Positions 56,360 to 64,000 of a DNA stretch of 64,000 nt are shown here, piece after piece. Every line of letters begins with the position of its first letter. The stretch's first letter is position 1. The notes under the pieces are model-generated. The model saw nothing but the letters and a program-made list of their open reading frames with translations. It was not told the DNA's origin and made no database searches. Both the position numbers and the translations under genes were made by a program. The DNA comes from Mesorhizobium sp. M1C.F.Ca.ET.210.01.1.1 (GTDB lineage: Bacteria; Pseudomonadota; Alphaproteobacteria; Rhizobiales; Rhizobiaceae): contig NZ_SRUU01000016.1 of assembly GCF_004791585.1 (NCBI RefSeq), positions 1 through 64,000 on the forward strand, in the 5' to 3' direction.

Positions 56360-58573
56360 ATGCGCATTAGGAGCCAGATCATCCTCAGCATGGTCAGCGC
56401 CGCGGCGCTGATCGGGCTGGTTGGCGGCGTCGCCATATTCACGCAGATGACGGCGACCAAATACCTCGGGCTGACCGAAGCGACCAATGTCGCGCGCGAG
56501 CTCGCCGACACCATCGTCTTCAAGCCGTCCGACGGCACGCCTTCGCTGCTTGATCGGCCCGAGGCGCTCACGCAGTTCCTTGAGCAGCAGCATCGGCGCG
56601 CGCGGCGGGATTTCATCGTCGTCGACCGCAACAAGCTGATCGTCGCCCATGCCGCCGACGAGGAACACAAGGCCGGCGACAAGTTCAACCACGACCCCGG
56701 AAACGAGGTTGGCCAGACGCTGGCAGACGGCTTCCCGCGCAAGTTCGTCGATCCGAACGAGGTGAACGCGATCCTGGCCGTTCCGATCGAGCAGGGCGAG
56801 GACAACATCGTCGGCGCCGTGCTGCTGGAATACGATCCCGTGGTCAACGCCGCCGAACAGCGCACCAATGGCCTGCTCTGGCTGGTCGGCCTCAGCACCG
56901 CCGCCGCCATGCTGGTCGCGGCGGGTTTCGCCTGGATGCTGCTCAGCCGTTTCGGCTCCGGCCTCAAGGACATGATGCGCGGCATGCAGGCTTTGGCGCA
57001 GGGCGACGCCATGACCCGCATCGGCCATGCCCGCAGGGACGAGTTCGGGCAGCTGGCCGAAGGCTTCAACACGATGGCCGACCAGCTCGCATCGGCGCGG
57101 GCGCATATCGAGGACATCGTCGAGACGGTGGCCGAGGGCATCGTGGTGCTCGACGGCGACGGCCGCATCGTCAGCGCCAACCCGGCCGCGACGACGATGA
57201 TCGGCCGGCGCGCCGACAAGATCGTCGGGCTGCAATGGGACGCGGCGGTGAAGCTGCACGACGCGAAGGGCGGCGACTTCACCGGCGGGACGTCGCCCAT
57301 CGAGATCGCTCTGGCCACCGGACGCCAGCACCAGGGCGAAGTGCGCCTGGCCAGGCTGGACGGCTCGCAAACGCCCGTCATCGCCAGCTGCAGCCCGCTG
57401 AGCCGGTCGGAGGGCGGCCTGGTGCTGACCCTCAACGACATCAGTGAATTGCGCCGCGCCGAAGGCATCGTCAACGAGCGTGCCGATCAACTGGCCATCC
57501 TCAATCGCGAGCTGCACGAGAAGTCGGAGACGACGACCCGGCTGGTCAAGCTTGGCGAATTGCTGCAAGCCTGCGTGACCTTCCCCGAAGCCTTCTCGGT
57601 GGTCGGCACGGCGATGACCGAATTTCTCGGGGGTTTAAGCGGCAGCGTGCATCTGACCAGCGCCTCGCGCAACCTGGTCGAGGAGATGGCGCATTGGGGC
57701 GATGTCCGCTCGAGCATCACCCAATTCGCGCCGGAAGATTGCTGGGCGCTGCGGCGCGGCCAGGAACATGTCGCCGGGCCAGGCATGCTGACGCCGCGCT
57801 GCGCGCATATCACCGAGAACGGCAAGAAGGGCTATGTCTGCATGCCGCTGGCGGCGCAGGGCGAGACGCTCGGCATCCTGCACCTATGCGAGCCGAACGC
57901 GGCCGAGAAACCGCAATGGCTGGCCGAGCGGCAGCAGATCCTGCGCGGCGTCGTCGACACTCTCGCCCTGGCGCTGGCCAATCTGCGCCTGCGCGAGACG
58001 CTCAGGCAGCAGTCGATCCGCGATCCGAACACAGGCCTGTTCAACCGGCGCTATCTCGAGGAAACCAGCAGCCGGGAACTGAGGCGCATGGAGCGCTCGG
58101 GCCAGCCTCTGACGATCATCATGCTCGATGTCGACCACTTCAAGCAGTTCAACGACACCTTCGGCCACGAGGCCGGGGACCTTGTGCTGAAGCAGGTCGC
58201 GGCGACGCTGATCGAGCATGCGCGCGACAGCGATGTCGTGTCGCGCTACGGCGGCGAGGAATTCGCCTTGGTGATGCCGGGATGCTCGCTCGAGGAGGGC
58301 GCTGAGCGCGCCGAAACGCTACGCCAGGCGATCAAGAATCTGCATCTGGCGCATCGCGGCCGTACGCTGGGCACGGTCACGGCCTCGTTCGGCGTCGCGG
58401 CCTATCCTGAGCATGGCTCAGGCTGGGCCGAACTCACCAATGCCGCCGACCATGCGCAATACGATGCCAAGGCCGAGGGACGCGACCGCGTGGTCGTGGC
58501 CAGGAACACCCCGCCGGGCGAGCGTCCCGCGATCCAGCTGGTGCCGTCGAAGAAATCGGGCGCGCCGACGTAA
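56360..58573 (+). CDS. Membrane diguanylate cyclase with HAMP, PAS and GAF
   Basis: A 737-residue sensor enzyme making cyclic di-GMP. It has an N-terminal helix (8-28), a periplasmic sensor segment (about 30-170) and a second helix (about 174-195, 'LLWLVGLSTAAAMLVAAGFA'). A HAMP linker (to about 250), a PAS domain ('VETVAEGIVVLDGDGRIVSA') and a GAF-like domain (about 400-560) follow. The GGDEF domain (about 570-730) has active-site 'YGGEEFALVMPGC' and an upstream I-site RxxD (RDSD), so product inhibition is likely. The signal is unknown. No EAL domain is present. Confidence 0.95.
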   Translation: MRIRSQIILSMVSAAALIGLVGGVAIFTQMTATKYLGLTEATNVARELADTIVFKPSDGTPSLLDRPEALTQFLEQQHRRARRDFIVVDRNKLIVAHAADEEHKAGDKFNHDPGNEVGQTLADGFPRKFVDPNEVNAILAVPIEQGEDNIVGAVLLEYDPVVNAAEQRTNGLLWLVGLSTAAAMLVAAGFAWMLLSRFGSGLKDMMRGMQALAQGDAMTRIGHARRDEFGQLAEGFNTMADQLASARAHIEDIVETVAEGIVVLDGDGRIVSANPAATTMIGRRADKIVGLQWDAAVKLHDAKGGDFTGGTSPIEIALATGRQHQGEVRLARLDGSQTPVIASCSPLSRSEGGLVLTLNDISELRRAEGIVNERADQLAILNRELHEKSETTTRLVKLGELLQACVTFPEAFSVVGTAMTEFLGGLSGSVHLTSASRNLVEEMAHWGDVRSSITQFAPEDCWALRRGQEHVAGPGMLTPRCAHITENGKKGYVCMPLAAQGETLGILHLCEPNAAEKPQWLAERQQILRGVVDTLALALANLRLRETLRQQSIRDPNTGLFNRRYLEETSSRELRRMERSGQPLTIIMLDVDHFKQFNDTFGHEAGDLVLKQVAATLIEHARDSDVVSRYGGEEFALVMPGCSLEEGAERAETLRQAIKNLHLAHRGRTLGTVTASFGVAAYPEHGSGWAELTNAADHAQYDAKAEGRDRVVVARNTPPGERPAIQLVPSKKSGAPT

Positions 58574-61668: not shown

Positions 61669-61852
61669 TGTCTTTATCCGATTGCGGTCGCGAACATATT
61701 AGCCCTGAATGATATTTCTGTCTTGCGCCAAGTTCGGGTTGACCCCTCCCCGGCGGGCGGCGACTATCGCCAAAAGGCGATTTGTTCTCACGCAATTCCG
61801 GACGGAAAGCCGCTGCACTTTTCCTGGAATTGCTCAGGCAGGAGGAATTCAA

Positions 61853-62152
61853 ATGGACGAGCCCGAACGCTGGCGCAACATGGCGAGCGCGCCGAGGGAC
61901 GGCAGCCGCATCCTGGTCACGGTGCGCTCGTCCGAGCAGGGACCGGCCGAGGTCGACATGGCCTACTGGTCGCGCGCCGACCAGTTCGGCGCGGAAGGCT
62001 GGCGGGCATCCGATTCCTCGCCCGGCCGCGTCGTCGAATATGCCGAGCCGGAGCTCAGATGCTGGATGCCCCTGCCCACGGCCGGACGCGGGACGATGCC
62101 TACACCGTGGGAAGAGGATGAGGTGCCGCTGGTGGATGGGGAAGGGATTTAG
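61853..62152 (+). CDS. Hypothetical protein, DUF551-like
   Basis: A 99-residue soluble protein: 'WRNMASAPRDGSRILVTVRS', then 'VDMAYWSRADQFGAEGWRAS' and 'LRCWMPLPTAGRGTMPTPWE'. The 'MASAPRDGSRIL' opening resembles the DUF551 motif (M-x-x-A-P-x-D-G). The role is unknown. A very good ribosome site ('caggaggaattcaa') precedes ATG 61853. It is divergent from the VOC gene and convergent with the Rieske gene. Confidence 0.8.
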   Translation: MDEPERWRNMASAPRDGSRILVTVRSSEQGPAEVDMAYWSRADQFGAEGWRASDSSPGRVVEYAEPELRCWMPLPTAGRGTMPTPWEEDEVPLVDGEGI

Positions 62153-62203: not shown

Positions 62204-62518
62204 CTACCCCACCGCCACCAACACCTCCCCCGCCTCGACCTTTGCCGGATAGGTGCGGAGGTTGATGCACGGCGGCAGGCGCTTGGCCGCTCCGGTGCGG
62301 TAATCGAAGGCGCCGGAATGCTTCGGACATTCGACCTCGTAGTCCATGACCAGGCCGTCGGCGATGTGCACGGCCTCATGCGTGCAGAGTCCGTCGGTGC
62401 AGAACACCTCGTCGTCGGGGGAGCGGAAGACGGCATAGGTCTTGCCGCCATGGTCGAAGCGGCGGGCGCCTTCCTGTTCGATGTCGTCGAGGCCGCAGGC
62501 CCTGATCCAGCCGGTCAT
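62204..62518 (-). CDS. mocE: MocE-type Rieske [2Fe-2S] ferredoxin
   Basis: A 104-residue Rieske ferredoxin. The cluster ligands are C-x-H in 'FCTDGLCTHEAVHIADG' and C-x-x-H in 'VECPKHSGAFDYRTGAA', spaced as in Rieske proteins. It resembles MocE of the rhizopine catabolism locus, which donates electrons to an oxygenase. Start ATG 62518 follows 'gtgagaaac'. It lies 65 bp downstream of a binding-protein gene and beyond a desaturase/hydroxylase gene, the same grouping expected for moc. An alternative is a ferredoxin for another Rieske-coupled oxygenase. Confidence 0.82.
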   Translation of the reverse strand: MTGWIRACGLDDIEQEGARRFDHGGKTYAVFRSPDDEVFCTDGLCTHEAVHIADGLVMDYEVECPKHSGAFDYRTGAAKRLPPCINLRTYPAKVEAGEVLVAVG

Positions 62519-62582
62519 GTTTCTCACCTGTAAGTGCGATTGCGGCGAGCCTCCGGGGCTTGCCCGGAGGCTCAGTCCTGGG

Positions 62583-63524
62583 TCAGTTCTTGCCGAGGTA
62601 CTCTGCCGCATTCGCGGGCGTCACCAGCTCGAACGGCACGTAGACGACGCGGTCGACCTTCTCGCCCTTGGCTAAGGCAAGTGCTGCATCGACACCGCCG
62701 CCGCCCTGCCCCTTGGCATTCTGGAACACCGTCACCGAAAGCTCGCCGGCCTTCATCGACTGCAGGCCGTCCTGCGTGGCGTCGATGCCGCCGACCACGA
62801 CGTTCTTCATGTCGACGCCATTGGCCTTCAGCGCCAGGATGGCGCCGATGGCGGATTCATCGTTGTTGGCGATGACGGCGTCGGGCGCCGGACCGGCGGT
62901 CAGCCAGTTGGTCATCAGGTTCTGCGCATTGTCGCGCGACCATTCCGACGACTGCTTGTCGGTGACCTTGATGAAGCTGCACATGTCGGTCGAAAAGACC
63001 TGCTCGACATCCTTGGTGCGCTGGAGCGCCGCCTGGTGCACCAGGCTGCCCATGACGATGTAGGCACTGGCGCCGGAGGACTTGCCTTTGGCGCGCAGCA
63101 TCTTGCACACCTCGAAGGCTTCCAGCGTGCCGGACTCGACCTCGTTTGAGCCGACATAGACCTGTTTCTCAGGCAGCTTCGCCATGTCGACCGGCTCGAG
63201 ATTGACGAAGACCAGCGGAATGCCGGCCTTGGCGGCCTCTTCGCTGATGGTCTTGGAGGCATTGGTGTCGACGAGGGTGACGATGATGGCATCGACGCCT
63301 GAGGCGATGAAGTTCTTGACCTGATCGAGCTGCTTGGCGACGTCGTTCTGGGCATCCTCGACCTGGATGTCGGCGCCCTTCTCCTTGGCGCGGTCCTGCA
63401 TGCCGTGCATCAAGAGCGTCTGGAAATTGTTGTCGAAATTGACGATCGAGACGCCGAGCTTGGCGGCGAATGCGTTGGTCGACATCAGCGCAGCCAAAGC
63501 CGTCGAGATGAGAAGTTTCTTCAC
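62583..63524 (-). CDS. mocB: Rhizopine-type ABC substrate-binding protein
   Basis: A 313-residue periplasmic-binding protein with a signal peptide ('KKLLISTALAALMSTNAFA'). The fold is RbsB-like: 'VSIVNFDNNFQTLLMHGMQD', 'FIASGVDAIIVTLVDTNAS' and 'GPAPDAVIANNDESAIGAI'. These resemble sugar/inositol-type binding proteins, including the rhizopine-binding MocB. The start is GTG 63524, with 'gggaggaacccc' ahead. Together with the Rieske and desaturase genes it suggests uptake of an inositol derivative such as 3-O-methyl-scyllo-inosamine. ABC permease and ATPase genes are not in the window. Confidence 0.75.
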   Translation of the reverse strand: MKKLLISTALAALMSTNAFAAKLGVSIVNFDNNFQTLLMHGMQDRAKEKGADIQVEDAQNDVAKQLDQVKNFIASGVDAIIVTLVDTNASKTISEEAAKAGIPLVFVNLEPVDMAKLPEKQVYVGSNEVESGTLEAFEVCKMLRAKGKSSGASAYIVMGSLVHQAALQRTKDVEQVFSTDMCSFIKVTDKQSSEWSRDNAQNLMTNWLTAGPAPDAVIANNDESAIGAILALKANGVDMKNVVVGGIDATQDGLQSMKAGELSVTVFQNAKGQGGGGVDAALALAKGEKVDRVVYVPFELVTPANAAEYLGKN

Positions 63525-63686
63525 GGGGTTCCTCCCTTTGGACTGGAGCGCCGGGTCACTCCGCTTCTGATTTTCCGGCCCTTTCGGGATGGCTTGGGTG
63601 GAACGCCGAAGGCGTTCTCACCGGGTGGAAGGCCCAAGGCCTTCTCACCGGTGCACGGCCGAGGCCGCTCACATGGTCTGTCGGCG

Positions 63687-64000
63687 TCATTTCGCAGCCG
63701 CGTTGGCGCGCGCCTTCTTCTTCTCGTAGCGGGCCTGCATGCGCGCCTCGCCGTCCTTGCTGCCGTCGTGGAAGGTGCCGAACCAGCGGTCGAAGGGGAT
63801 CAGGCCGTCGCCGTAGTTCACCTCGAAATATTTGTGGTGGAGGTAGTGGATGTAGGCGTGGCTATCGACGGTTCTGTCCTCGGTCAGCTCGATCTTGTCG
63901 AAGCCGACATGGCCGGGAATGGCGCCGAAGCCCGCATAATGGAGCTGGTAGAGCGCCAGCAGCGGGTTCGACGGGATGATGAGATGCCAGAACGCCACGC
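63687..64000 (-). CDS. Fatty-acid hydroxylase/desaturase-type protein, C-terminal part (MocD-like)
   Basis: The last 103 residues of a gene that continues past the right edge. A histidine-cluster motif, 'AYIHYLHHKYFEVNYGDGLI', and the following 'PFDRWFGTFHDGS' are typical of the sterol desaturase/fatty-acid hydroxylase superfamily (membrane di-iron oxygenases). The tail is Lys/Ala-rich. It is upstream of the binding-protein gene on the same strand, with a 162-bp gap. In moc loci a hydrocarbon oxygenase (MocD) works with MocE, so this could be its partner. The start is outside the window. Confidence 0.8.
   Translation of the reverse strand, partial: VAFWHLIIPSNPLLALYQLHYAGFGAIPGHVGFDKIELTEDRTVDSHAYIHYLHHKYFEVNYGDGLIPFDRWFGTFHDGSKDGEARMQARYEKKKARANAAAK

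Follow-up and report, generated by a model that had tools for sequence, protein, structure and literature searches.

The rhizopine catabolic genes described for S. meliloti L5-30 and R. leguminosarum comprise mocDEF, mocR, mocBA and mocC, and the oxygenase encoded by mocDEF is presented there as a part of O-methyl inosamine catabolism (PMC10107442). A mocDEF-like cluster that includes a LacI gene is SMb20817-20820 of S. meliloti 1021 (PMC11387232), and relatives of the nitrogen-fixation activator FixV are reported to adjoin mocDEF in a layout such as we found on contig C219 of the genome studied here (PMC3538637). For methylguanidine, demethylation has been described as a sequence of two steps, catalysed by the hydroxylase MgdH and the lyase MgdL (PMC12508155).

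The window analysed here consists of 64,000 bases (bases 1-64000 of contig C76, which has 142,191 bases) from a Mesorhizobium genome of 6.8 Mb. A first-pass annotation had proposed a rhizopine (moc)-like locus at its right edge, built on a desaturase/hydroxylase-type gene, an RbsB-type binding protein and a Rieske ferredoxin. These three genes indeed lie on one strand (minus) and in the order given there. The window edge at 64000 cuts the operon to which they belong, whose other end is at 66760:

66760-65726, minus strand: lacI (PF00356 and PF13407), beyond the window edge
65712-65730: palindrome at the lacI stop, beyond the window edge
65510-64719, minus strand: PanB-like gene (PF02548), beyond the window edge
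64706-63687, minus strand: PF04116 membrane hydroxylase gene, of which only the 3' part (63687-64000) is within the window
63524-62583, minus strand: MglB/RbsB-type periplasmic binding protein of 313 aa (PF13407)
62518-62204, minus strand: MocE-family Rieske [2Fe-2S] ferredoxin of 104 aa (PF00355, PF13806, TIGR02377), last gene of the operon

The stretch 62204-66760 was taken as a unit because the flanking genes at 61709-62152 and 66931-68121 are located on the plus strand. The five genes are kept together and in the same order in 11 other Mesorhizobium contigs, with 84-98% protein identity, and this recurrence is more than chance. We are highly confident that lacI, the PanB-like gene and the genes for hydroxylase, binding protein and ferredoxin constitute a LacI-type operon with an oxygenase-ferredoxin pair.

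Comparison with the rhizopine genes

Only the ferredoxin passed a Moc family test; the oxygenase, the binding protein, the regulator and the search for nearby moc genes all failed, and the identification as a moc locus fell with them. The ferredoxin matched PF00355 (E 7.5e-17) and PF13806, its translation shows a CTH...CPKH motif, and its assignment to the MocE type was borne out by TIGR02377 MocE_fam_FeS (176.1 bits, cut-off 136.15), a subfamily model that covers non-rhizopine loci too. The 135-aa ORF from 62611 represents too early a start for this gene. The oxygenase had been likened to MocD. It belongs to PF04116 only, in contrast to the MocD-type protein of contig C219 (our comparison protein, not L5-30 MocD), which is a PF00487 member and showed no similarity to it in BLASTP (E 0.42). 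The supposed MocB reached 35.8 bits in the rhizopine model NF052284, whose cut-off is 420, and ranked 17th among the 23 matches of its own genome, none of which was above the cut-off. Instead of a MocR, the regulator is a LacI protein (PF00356), and no GntR-type gene was recognised in the ORFs of the contig stretch 60001-80000. The genes expected beyond 64000 (mocF, mocA, mocC, permease and ATPase) were not found in the same stretch by tblastn, for which the MocF-type reductase, permease, ATPase, three Gfo/Idh and three TIM-barrel proteins of sister loci served as queries and not authentic MocA or MocC. The operon itself is without reductase, permease or ATPase, and neither a permease nor an ATPase gene adjoins that of the binding protein.

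Moc-box repeats were absent from the window, bases 1-8000 of L005, C219 and the C43 stretch in a search run without an authentic moc promoter as positive control. Pairs of moc boxes with 2 mismatches occurred in 10 of 394 genomes, and a backwards control was at least as frequent among the matches listed; ten short loci around such matches contained no query match and four larger regions only ATPase-like ones, which is a chance-like picture. Binding proteins above the NF052284 cut-off were present in 7 of 394 genomes. The regions around these seven and around one protein just below the cut-off (L085-L092) carry CUT2 transporter genes, and no MocD, MocE, hydroxylase or PanB-like match was seen in any of the eight; NF052284 alone may therefore not mark rhizopine loci. 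One of the above-cut-off proteins, searched in plasmids, gave a single Roseateles record.

An actual moc locus, serving rhizopine (3-O-methyl-scyllo-inosamine), would explain why a MocE-family ferredoxin over the cut-off lies alongside a binding protein and an oxygenase. With an oxygenase of another family, a binding protein at 35.8 against 420 bits, a LacI regulator, no MocF, Gfo/Idh or TIM-barrel genes in 60001-80000 and no moc box (in the search lacking a positive control), we regard it as extremely improbable, and it was set aside on the tests of family, regulator, promoter and neighbourhood. The likeness to the rhizopine genes consists of the MocE-family ferredoxin, a membrane-type iron oxygenase and a binding protein of sugar type that has no permease of its own next to it, whereas the differences are PF04116 in place of the PF00487 type, an unrelated binding-protein subfamily, LacI in place of MocR, the extra PanB-like gene and the lack of adjoining mocF, mocA and mocC. 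To the right of the window edge the oxygenase proved to be unrelated, which removes the moc identity, but its association with a MocE ferredoxin stands. What remains of the proposal is that the locus reasonably works like MocDEF, since the ferredoxin, which passes the MocE model, has a membrane iron oxygenase and a sugar-type binding protein for neighbours; that it is a moc locus is unsupported. The suggested link to symbiosis gained no support either: nodA is located on contig C154 and the operon on C76, and nothing ties the operon to symbiosis. Because of this nodA, the genome resembles that of a nodulating strain.

Sister loci

Two further loci of the same genome are relevant for comparison:

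Contig C219, 3290-13342 (L046): mocDEF-like locus, fuller than that of the window
Contig C43, 4922-9358 (L045): third PanB-like/MocE/MocD-type locus, beyond which a TIM-barrel protein and a Gfo/Idh-like one are encoded

On C219, an SDR-like ORF, inositol 2-dehydrogenase (428.6 bits in its model, cut-off 355), ATPase, CUT2 permease and binding protein are found on one side of LacI, and MocD-type oxygenase (PF00487), MocE, MocF-type reductase and PanB-like protein on the divergent side. It is a closer mocDEF-like cluster than the window operon. SMb20817-20820 and the C219 cluster, neither of them a proven rhizopine locus, share a LacI regulator and a MocE ferredoxin with the window operon but differ from it by a PF00487-type oxygenase and a MocF-type reductase of their own; a PanB-like gene is common to the window operon, C219 and the S. 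meliloti ml21 pSymB cluster. The gene content of C76, C219 and C43 indicates that two oxygenases without detectable similarity to each other each accompany MocE and a PanB-like protein. In Pararhizobium sp. A13, a row of LacI, PanB-like protein (80%), hydroxylase (70%), MocE (80%), MocF-like protein and PurU is separated from a C219-type locus by about 5 kb. The C219-type MocD was present in all 12 genomes searched, own included (86-100% identical), the comparison being confined to genomes with the gene arrangement of the window (arrangement A, see below).

The hydroxylase

The hydroxylase comprises 339 aa if it starts at 64706, and the conserved start MDD would fall at 64694. PF04116 was the sole Pfam family matched (E 4.2e-17, 63.2 bits, cut-off 31), and the three histidine boxes H196-H200, H209-H213 and H287-H291 are invariant in alignments of 17 and 30 sequences, which together place the protein among the PF04116 membrane di-iron hydroxylases. 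The chemistry of this family includes the oxidation of a methyl to a hydroxymethyl group. No match was obtained with the NCBIfam models or, by sequence, with the solved structures in the PDB; the nearest relatives among the matches listed are 88-95% identical and mostly from Mesorhizobium. The nod-box 'fatty acid hydroxylase' described for Mimosa symbionts (PMC5789663) was compared as well and is a different gene (E 0.011 over 59 residues).

In public records, the genes are called 'sterol desaturase', 'MocE family ferredoxin' and '3-methyl-2-oxobutanoate hydroxymethyltransferase'; such names suggest lipids, rhizopine and the synthesis of a vitamin, none of which is supported by the gene context. 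A hydroxylase modifying lipids or sterols, as the automatic name 'sterol desaturase family protein' implies, would be in line with the PF04116 membership and the automatic names of relatives; given that its neighbours are LacI regulators and a binding protein of sugar type, we consider this role very unlikely.

The PanB-like protein

The PanB-like protein matched PF02548 with 134.5 bits (cut-off 28.7), the match entering from profile position 65, but stayed far below the cut-offs of the PanB equivalogs TIGR00222 (98.6 bits, cut-off 207.55) and NF001452 (122.1, cut-off 272). A model built from 41 sequences (mean pLDDT 95.4) had six PanB entries as its best structural matches, with Z scores of 27.0-23.0 after re-alignment of Foldseek matches, and PEP mutase and relatives followed at about 16. 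Residues were compared by aligning the C43 paralogue with 1m3u and nine family members with the true PanB of the genome. Among D45, D84, K112 and E114 of E. coli PanB, which we take to be important positions for metal and substrate binding, D84 is replaced by Gly (in the C76 protein), K112 by Tyr and E114 by Ser or a similar residue, so that this set is not retained in the aligned proteins; around D45 the alignment is ambiguous, with an acid often nearby. The protein resembles ketopantoate hydroxymethyltransferase PanB in its fold and in keeping His and Glu aligned to H136 and E181, and H113, E155, E157, D185 and H205 are invariant in the 41 sequences. A further difference from PanB is that the genome possesses two ordinary PanB genes besides: PF02548 matches occur in five places, as ordinary PanB on C121 and C186 and as PanB-like protein on C76, C219 and C43.

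At E <= 1e-45, the PanB-like family was found in 22 of 385 genomes of the class, own included. We inspected 20 regions from 18 of the 21 other genomes, some of them near contig ends. MocD, MocE or hydroxylase matches were present in eight regions (L208-L213, L224, L225) and a PhyH gene in three more (L217, L219, L221) as well as in L224; no iron oxygenase was seen in the remaining nine of the 20 (L207, L214, L215, L216, L218, L220, L222, L223, L226). The PhyH association is a hint only, because the candidates were picked by eye, albeit confirmed by Pfam in 5 of 5 cases, and have no background rate. An AT-rich genome of about 1.6 Mb (L213, L217, L224) carries four PanB-like copies, which adjoin MocD-type, MocE, PF04116 and PhyH genes in differing combinations.

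A role of the PanB-like protein in handling one-carbon units is suggested here tentatively. It is more doubtful that the PanB-like proteins form a separate family which would split off or transfer hydroxymethyl groups generated by unrelated non-haem iron oxygenases (PF04116, PF00487 and PF05721 PhyH), with the window operon as one form, and by which the methyl carbon of plant cyclitols might enter folate metabolism without free formaldehyde. The gene associations would be identical if a sugar or polyol carbon were hydroxylated and the PanB-like protein then cleaved a C-C bond in the manner of an aldolase or lyase, with no methyl ether involved, and the PanB fold does group with lyases and mutases of the PEP mutase group. 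As PurU at some loci indicates one-carbon units and the MocDEF parallel a methyl ether, such a cleavage appears rather unlikely.

Binding protein and substrate class

The binding protein matched PF13407 (E 1.9e-50), and its best NCBIfam models, MglB and RbsB, did not reach their cut-offs. The top PDB match by sequence was 4yo7 (180.7 bits, runner-up 120.5; 43% identity over 278 aligned residues), presumably a myo-inositol complex. Of the positions that, by analogy, we assume to line its ligand pocket, D31, F34, N108, H163, R169, N220-D222, D248 and Q268 are kept, and N32, L109 and W195 differ. By fold (model pLDDT 90.9), the protein tied with glucose-binding proteins (Z 34.3 and 34.2) while the known myo-inositol binder 4irx ranked 46th (Z 29.9), and the fold does therefore not decide the ligand. 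A paralogue with 62% identity is encoded on C219. A cyclitol- or sugar-like ligand is favoured by these comparisons together with the inositol dehydrogenase of C219 and the isomerase and Gfo/Idh neighbours elsewhere, and the operon substrate probably belongs to this class.

Iron oxygenases with Rieske ferredoxins also act on methylated amines and betaines, and PurU accompanies amine demethylation too. A nitrogen compound of this kind, demethylated or oxidised in place of a polyol, is nevertheless improbable, since the binding protein, the LacI ligand domain and the Gfo/Idh and isomerase neighbours are all of the sugar/polyol type.

LacI and candidate operator

The regulator matched PF00356 (46.1 bits, cut-off 27) and the sugar-binding domain PF13407. 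The candidate operator at the lacI stop is TTTGATCTGATTTGATCAA. Allowing up to 3 mismatches to TTTGATCTRATTTGATCAA, the whole 6.8 Mb genome contains one copy, and a backwards control gave 0. All 11 Mesorhizobium loci with the window arrangement contain the palindrome, none with more than 1 mismatch, and S. meliloti 1021 pSymA carries TTTGATCTAATTAGATCAA, which contains a perfect palindrome. With up to 3 mismatches it was found in 37 of the best 80 of at least 586 hydroxylase loci. It is missing from 43 loci, namely 5 of the first 42 and every one of the 38 that begin with L141; in these 38 the LacI-like matches are 25-38% identical, and 3 of them lack any. A LacI-family regulator is thus accompanied by a local conserved palindrome to which it is predicted to bind. 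Being conserved and unique in the genome, the palindrome is a putative operator of this LacI, whose regulon in the genome would be the operon alone.

Distribution and arrangements

A scan with the hydroxylase alignment yielded at least 586 confirmed stretches, the best 80 of which were retained for neighbourhood counts (tblastn at 1e-8, within 8 kb of the hydroxylase); being the top hits and in many cases nearly identical to one another, these 80 are not independent, and contig ends make the counts lower bounds. LacI-like proteins were found near 75 of the 80, MocE near 68, ATPase 45, PanB-like 39, permease 36, a second binding-protein type 34, the window type 32, MocF-like 31, Hyi-like 23, Gfo/Idh 20, TIM-barrel 19, PurU 5 and MocD-type 1. 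Some of the matches to the large LacI, ATPase, permease and Gfo/Idh families are <30% identical, as are at least 2 of the 32 window-type binding-protein matches. PurU and the PanB-like protein are not obligatory, being near only 5 and 39 of the best 80 loci. At E <= 1e-20, the hydroxylase occurs in 19 of 151 genomes of the family.

Three arrangements were distinguished. Arrangement A, that of the window, is LacI, PanB-like, hydroxylase, binding protein, MocE, and arrangement B (Rhizobium, Sinorhizobium and others) is LacI, hydroxylase, MocE, binding protein, MocF-like, TIM-barrel. Arrangement C (Mesorhizobium, Rhizobium and Rhodobacterales) has LacI divergent from the other genes, which follow as hydroxylase, another binding protein, permease, ATPase, MocE, Hyi-like, PanB-like and Gfo/Idh, sometimes with MocF-like and PurU added. 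Within the best 80 loci, PanB-like neighbours were seen in Mesorhizobium, Rhizobium, Shinella, Gemmobacter, Rubellimicrobium, Tabrizicola and a Comamonadaceae MAG. In the open literature, most subscription journals lying outside the scope of the search, no description of the set of hydroxylase, MocE and PanB-like protein was found.

Two loci depart from these patterns. On pSymA of S. meliloti 1021 (L060, 11263-11483), LacI, hydroxylase and MocE are present, and the binding protein is represented only by two fragments, one of 47 and one of 27 residues, and may have decayed. A Rhizobium lentis plasmid (L062, 8869-10018) carries the palindrome upstream of PanB-like, MocF-like and PurU genes, a hydroxylase match of 120 residues only and no LacI match within the stretch, and is probably a decaying copy.

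A proposed demethylation pathway

Our best explanation, which we hold to be about as probable as not, is that of a LacI-controlled catabolic operon for the oxidative demethylation of a cyclitol- or sugar-like methyl ether, with the PanB-like protein handling the one-carbon unit. That hydroxylase and ferredoxin carry out an oxidative demethylation falls, taken by itself, slightly short of an even judgement. The binding protein would capture a small polyol, e.g., a methylated cyclitol or sugar, and uptake would proceed via a permease encoded elsewhere, perhaps the CUT2 transporter of C219. The inducer would detach LacI from the palindrome that directly follows its gene. The ferredoxin would deliver electrons, probably from the MocF-type reductase of C219, to the di-iron membrane hydroxylase, which would convert the methyl into a hydroxymethyl group of the presumed substrate. 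The PanB-like protein would split off or transfer the hydroxymethyl carbon, perhaps onto tetrahydrofolate, with PurU probably taking part in some relatives, and the demethylated polyol would pass into inositol-type catabolism. That reductase and permease are borrowed from C219 by the window operon is a guess.

This explanation is supported by the families, the intact histidine boxes, the conserved five-gene block, the gene associations and the unique conserved palindrome, as well as by the Pararhizobium A13 operon, the C219 inositol 2-dehydrogenase beside CUT2 genes, the 62% binding-protein paralogue and the 4yo7 match. We counted against it the lack of reductase, permease and ATPase genes in the operon, the tie with glucose-binding folds, the non-obligatory PurU and PanB-like genes and the 9 of 20 PanB-like regions without an iron oxygenase. 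If true, widespread rhizobial and rhodobacterial loci (at least 586 hydroxylase stretches) would serve to exploit plant polyols carrying methyl groups, compounds that are plentiful in legumes, and a single purified protein would suffice to test where the methyl carbon goes in MocDEF-type reactions. Further support comes from the published role of mocDEF in O-methyl inosamine catabolism (PMC10107442) and from the two-step demethylation of methylguanidine (PMC12508155). The likeness to MgdH and MgdL, as described in the latter, is one of logic only, in that an iron oxygenase yields a hydroxymethyl compound which a partner splits, whereas MgdH is a 2-oxoglutarate dioxygenase, MgdL was modelled as a beta-barrel, and both are unrelated to the proteins of the window.

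Surroundings of the operon

The flanks of the operon vary among the 11 related Mesorhizobium stretches, which are of unequal lengths: on the left, a small ORF, a VOC gene and a sulfotransferase gene are each present in 5 of the 11, and on the right an aldo-keto reductase, likewise in 5 of 11. The window gene at 61709-62152 on the plus strand is a 147-aa ORF without a Pfam match, found in five of these stretches with 79-88% identity. Farther to the left, at 56360-58573 on the plus strand, the window encodes a protein of 737 aa, the C-terminal part of which resembles, by eye, a GGDEF diguanylate cyclase with a GGEEF motif.
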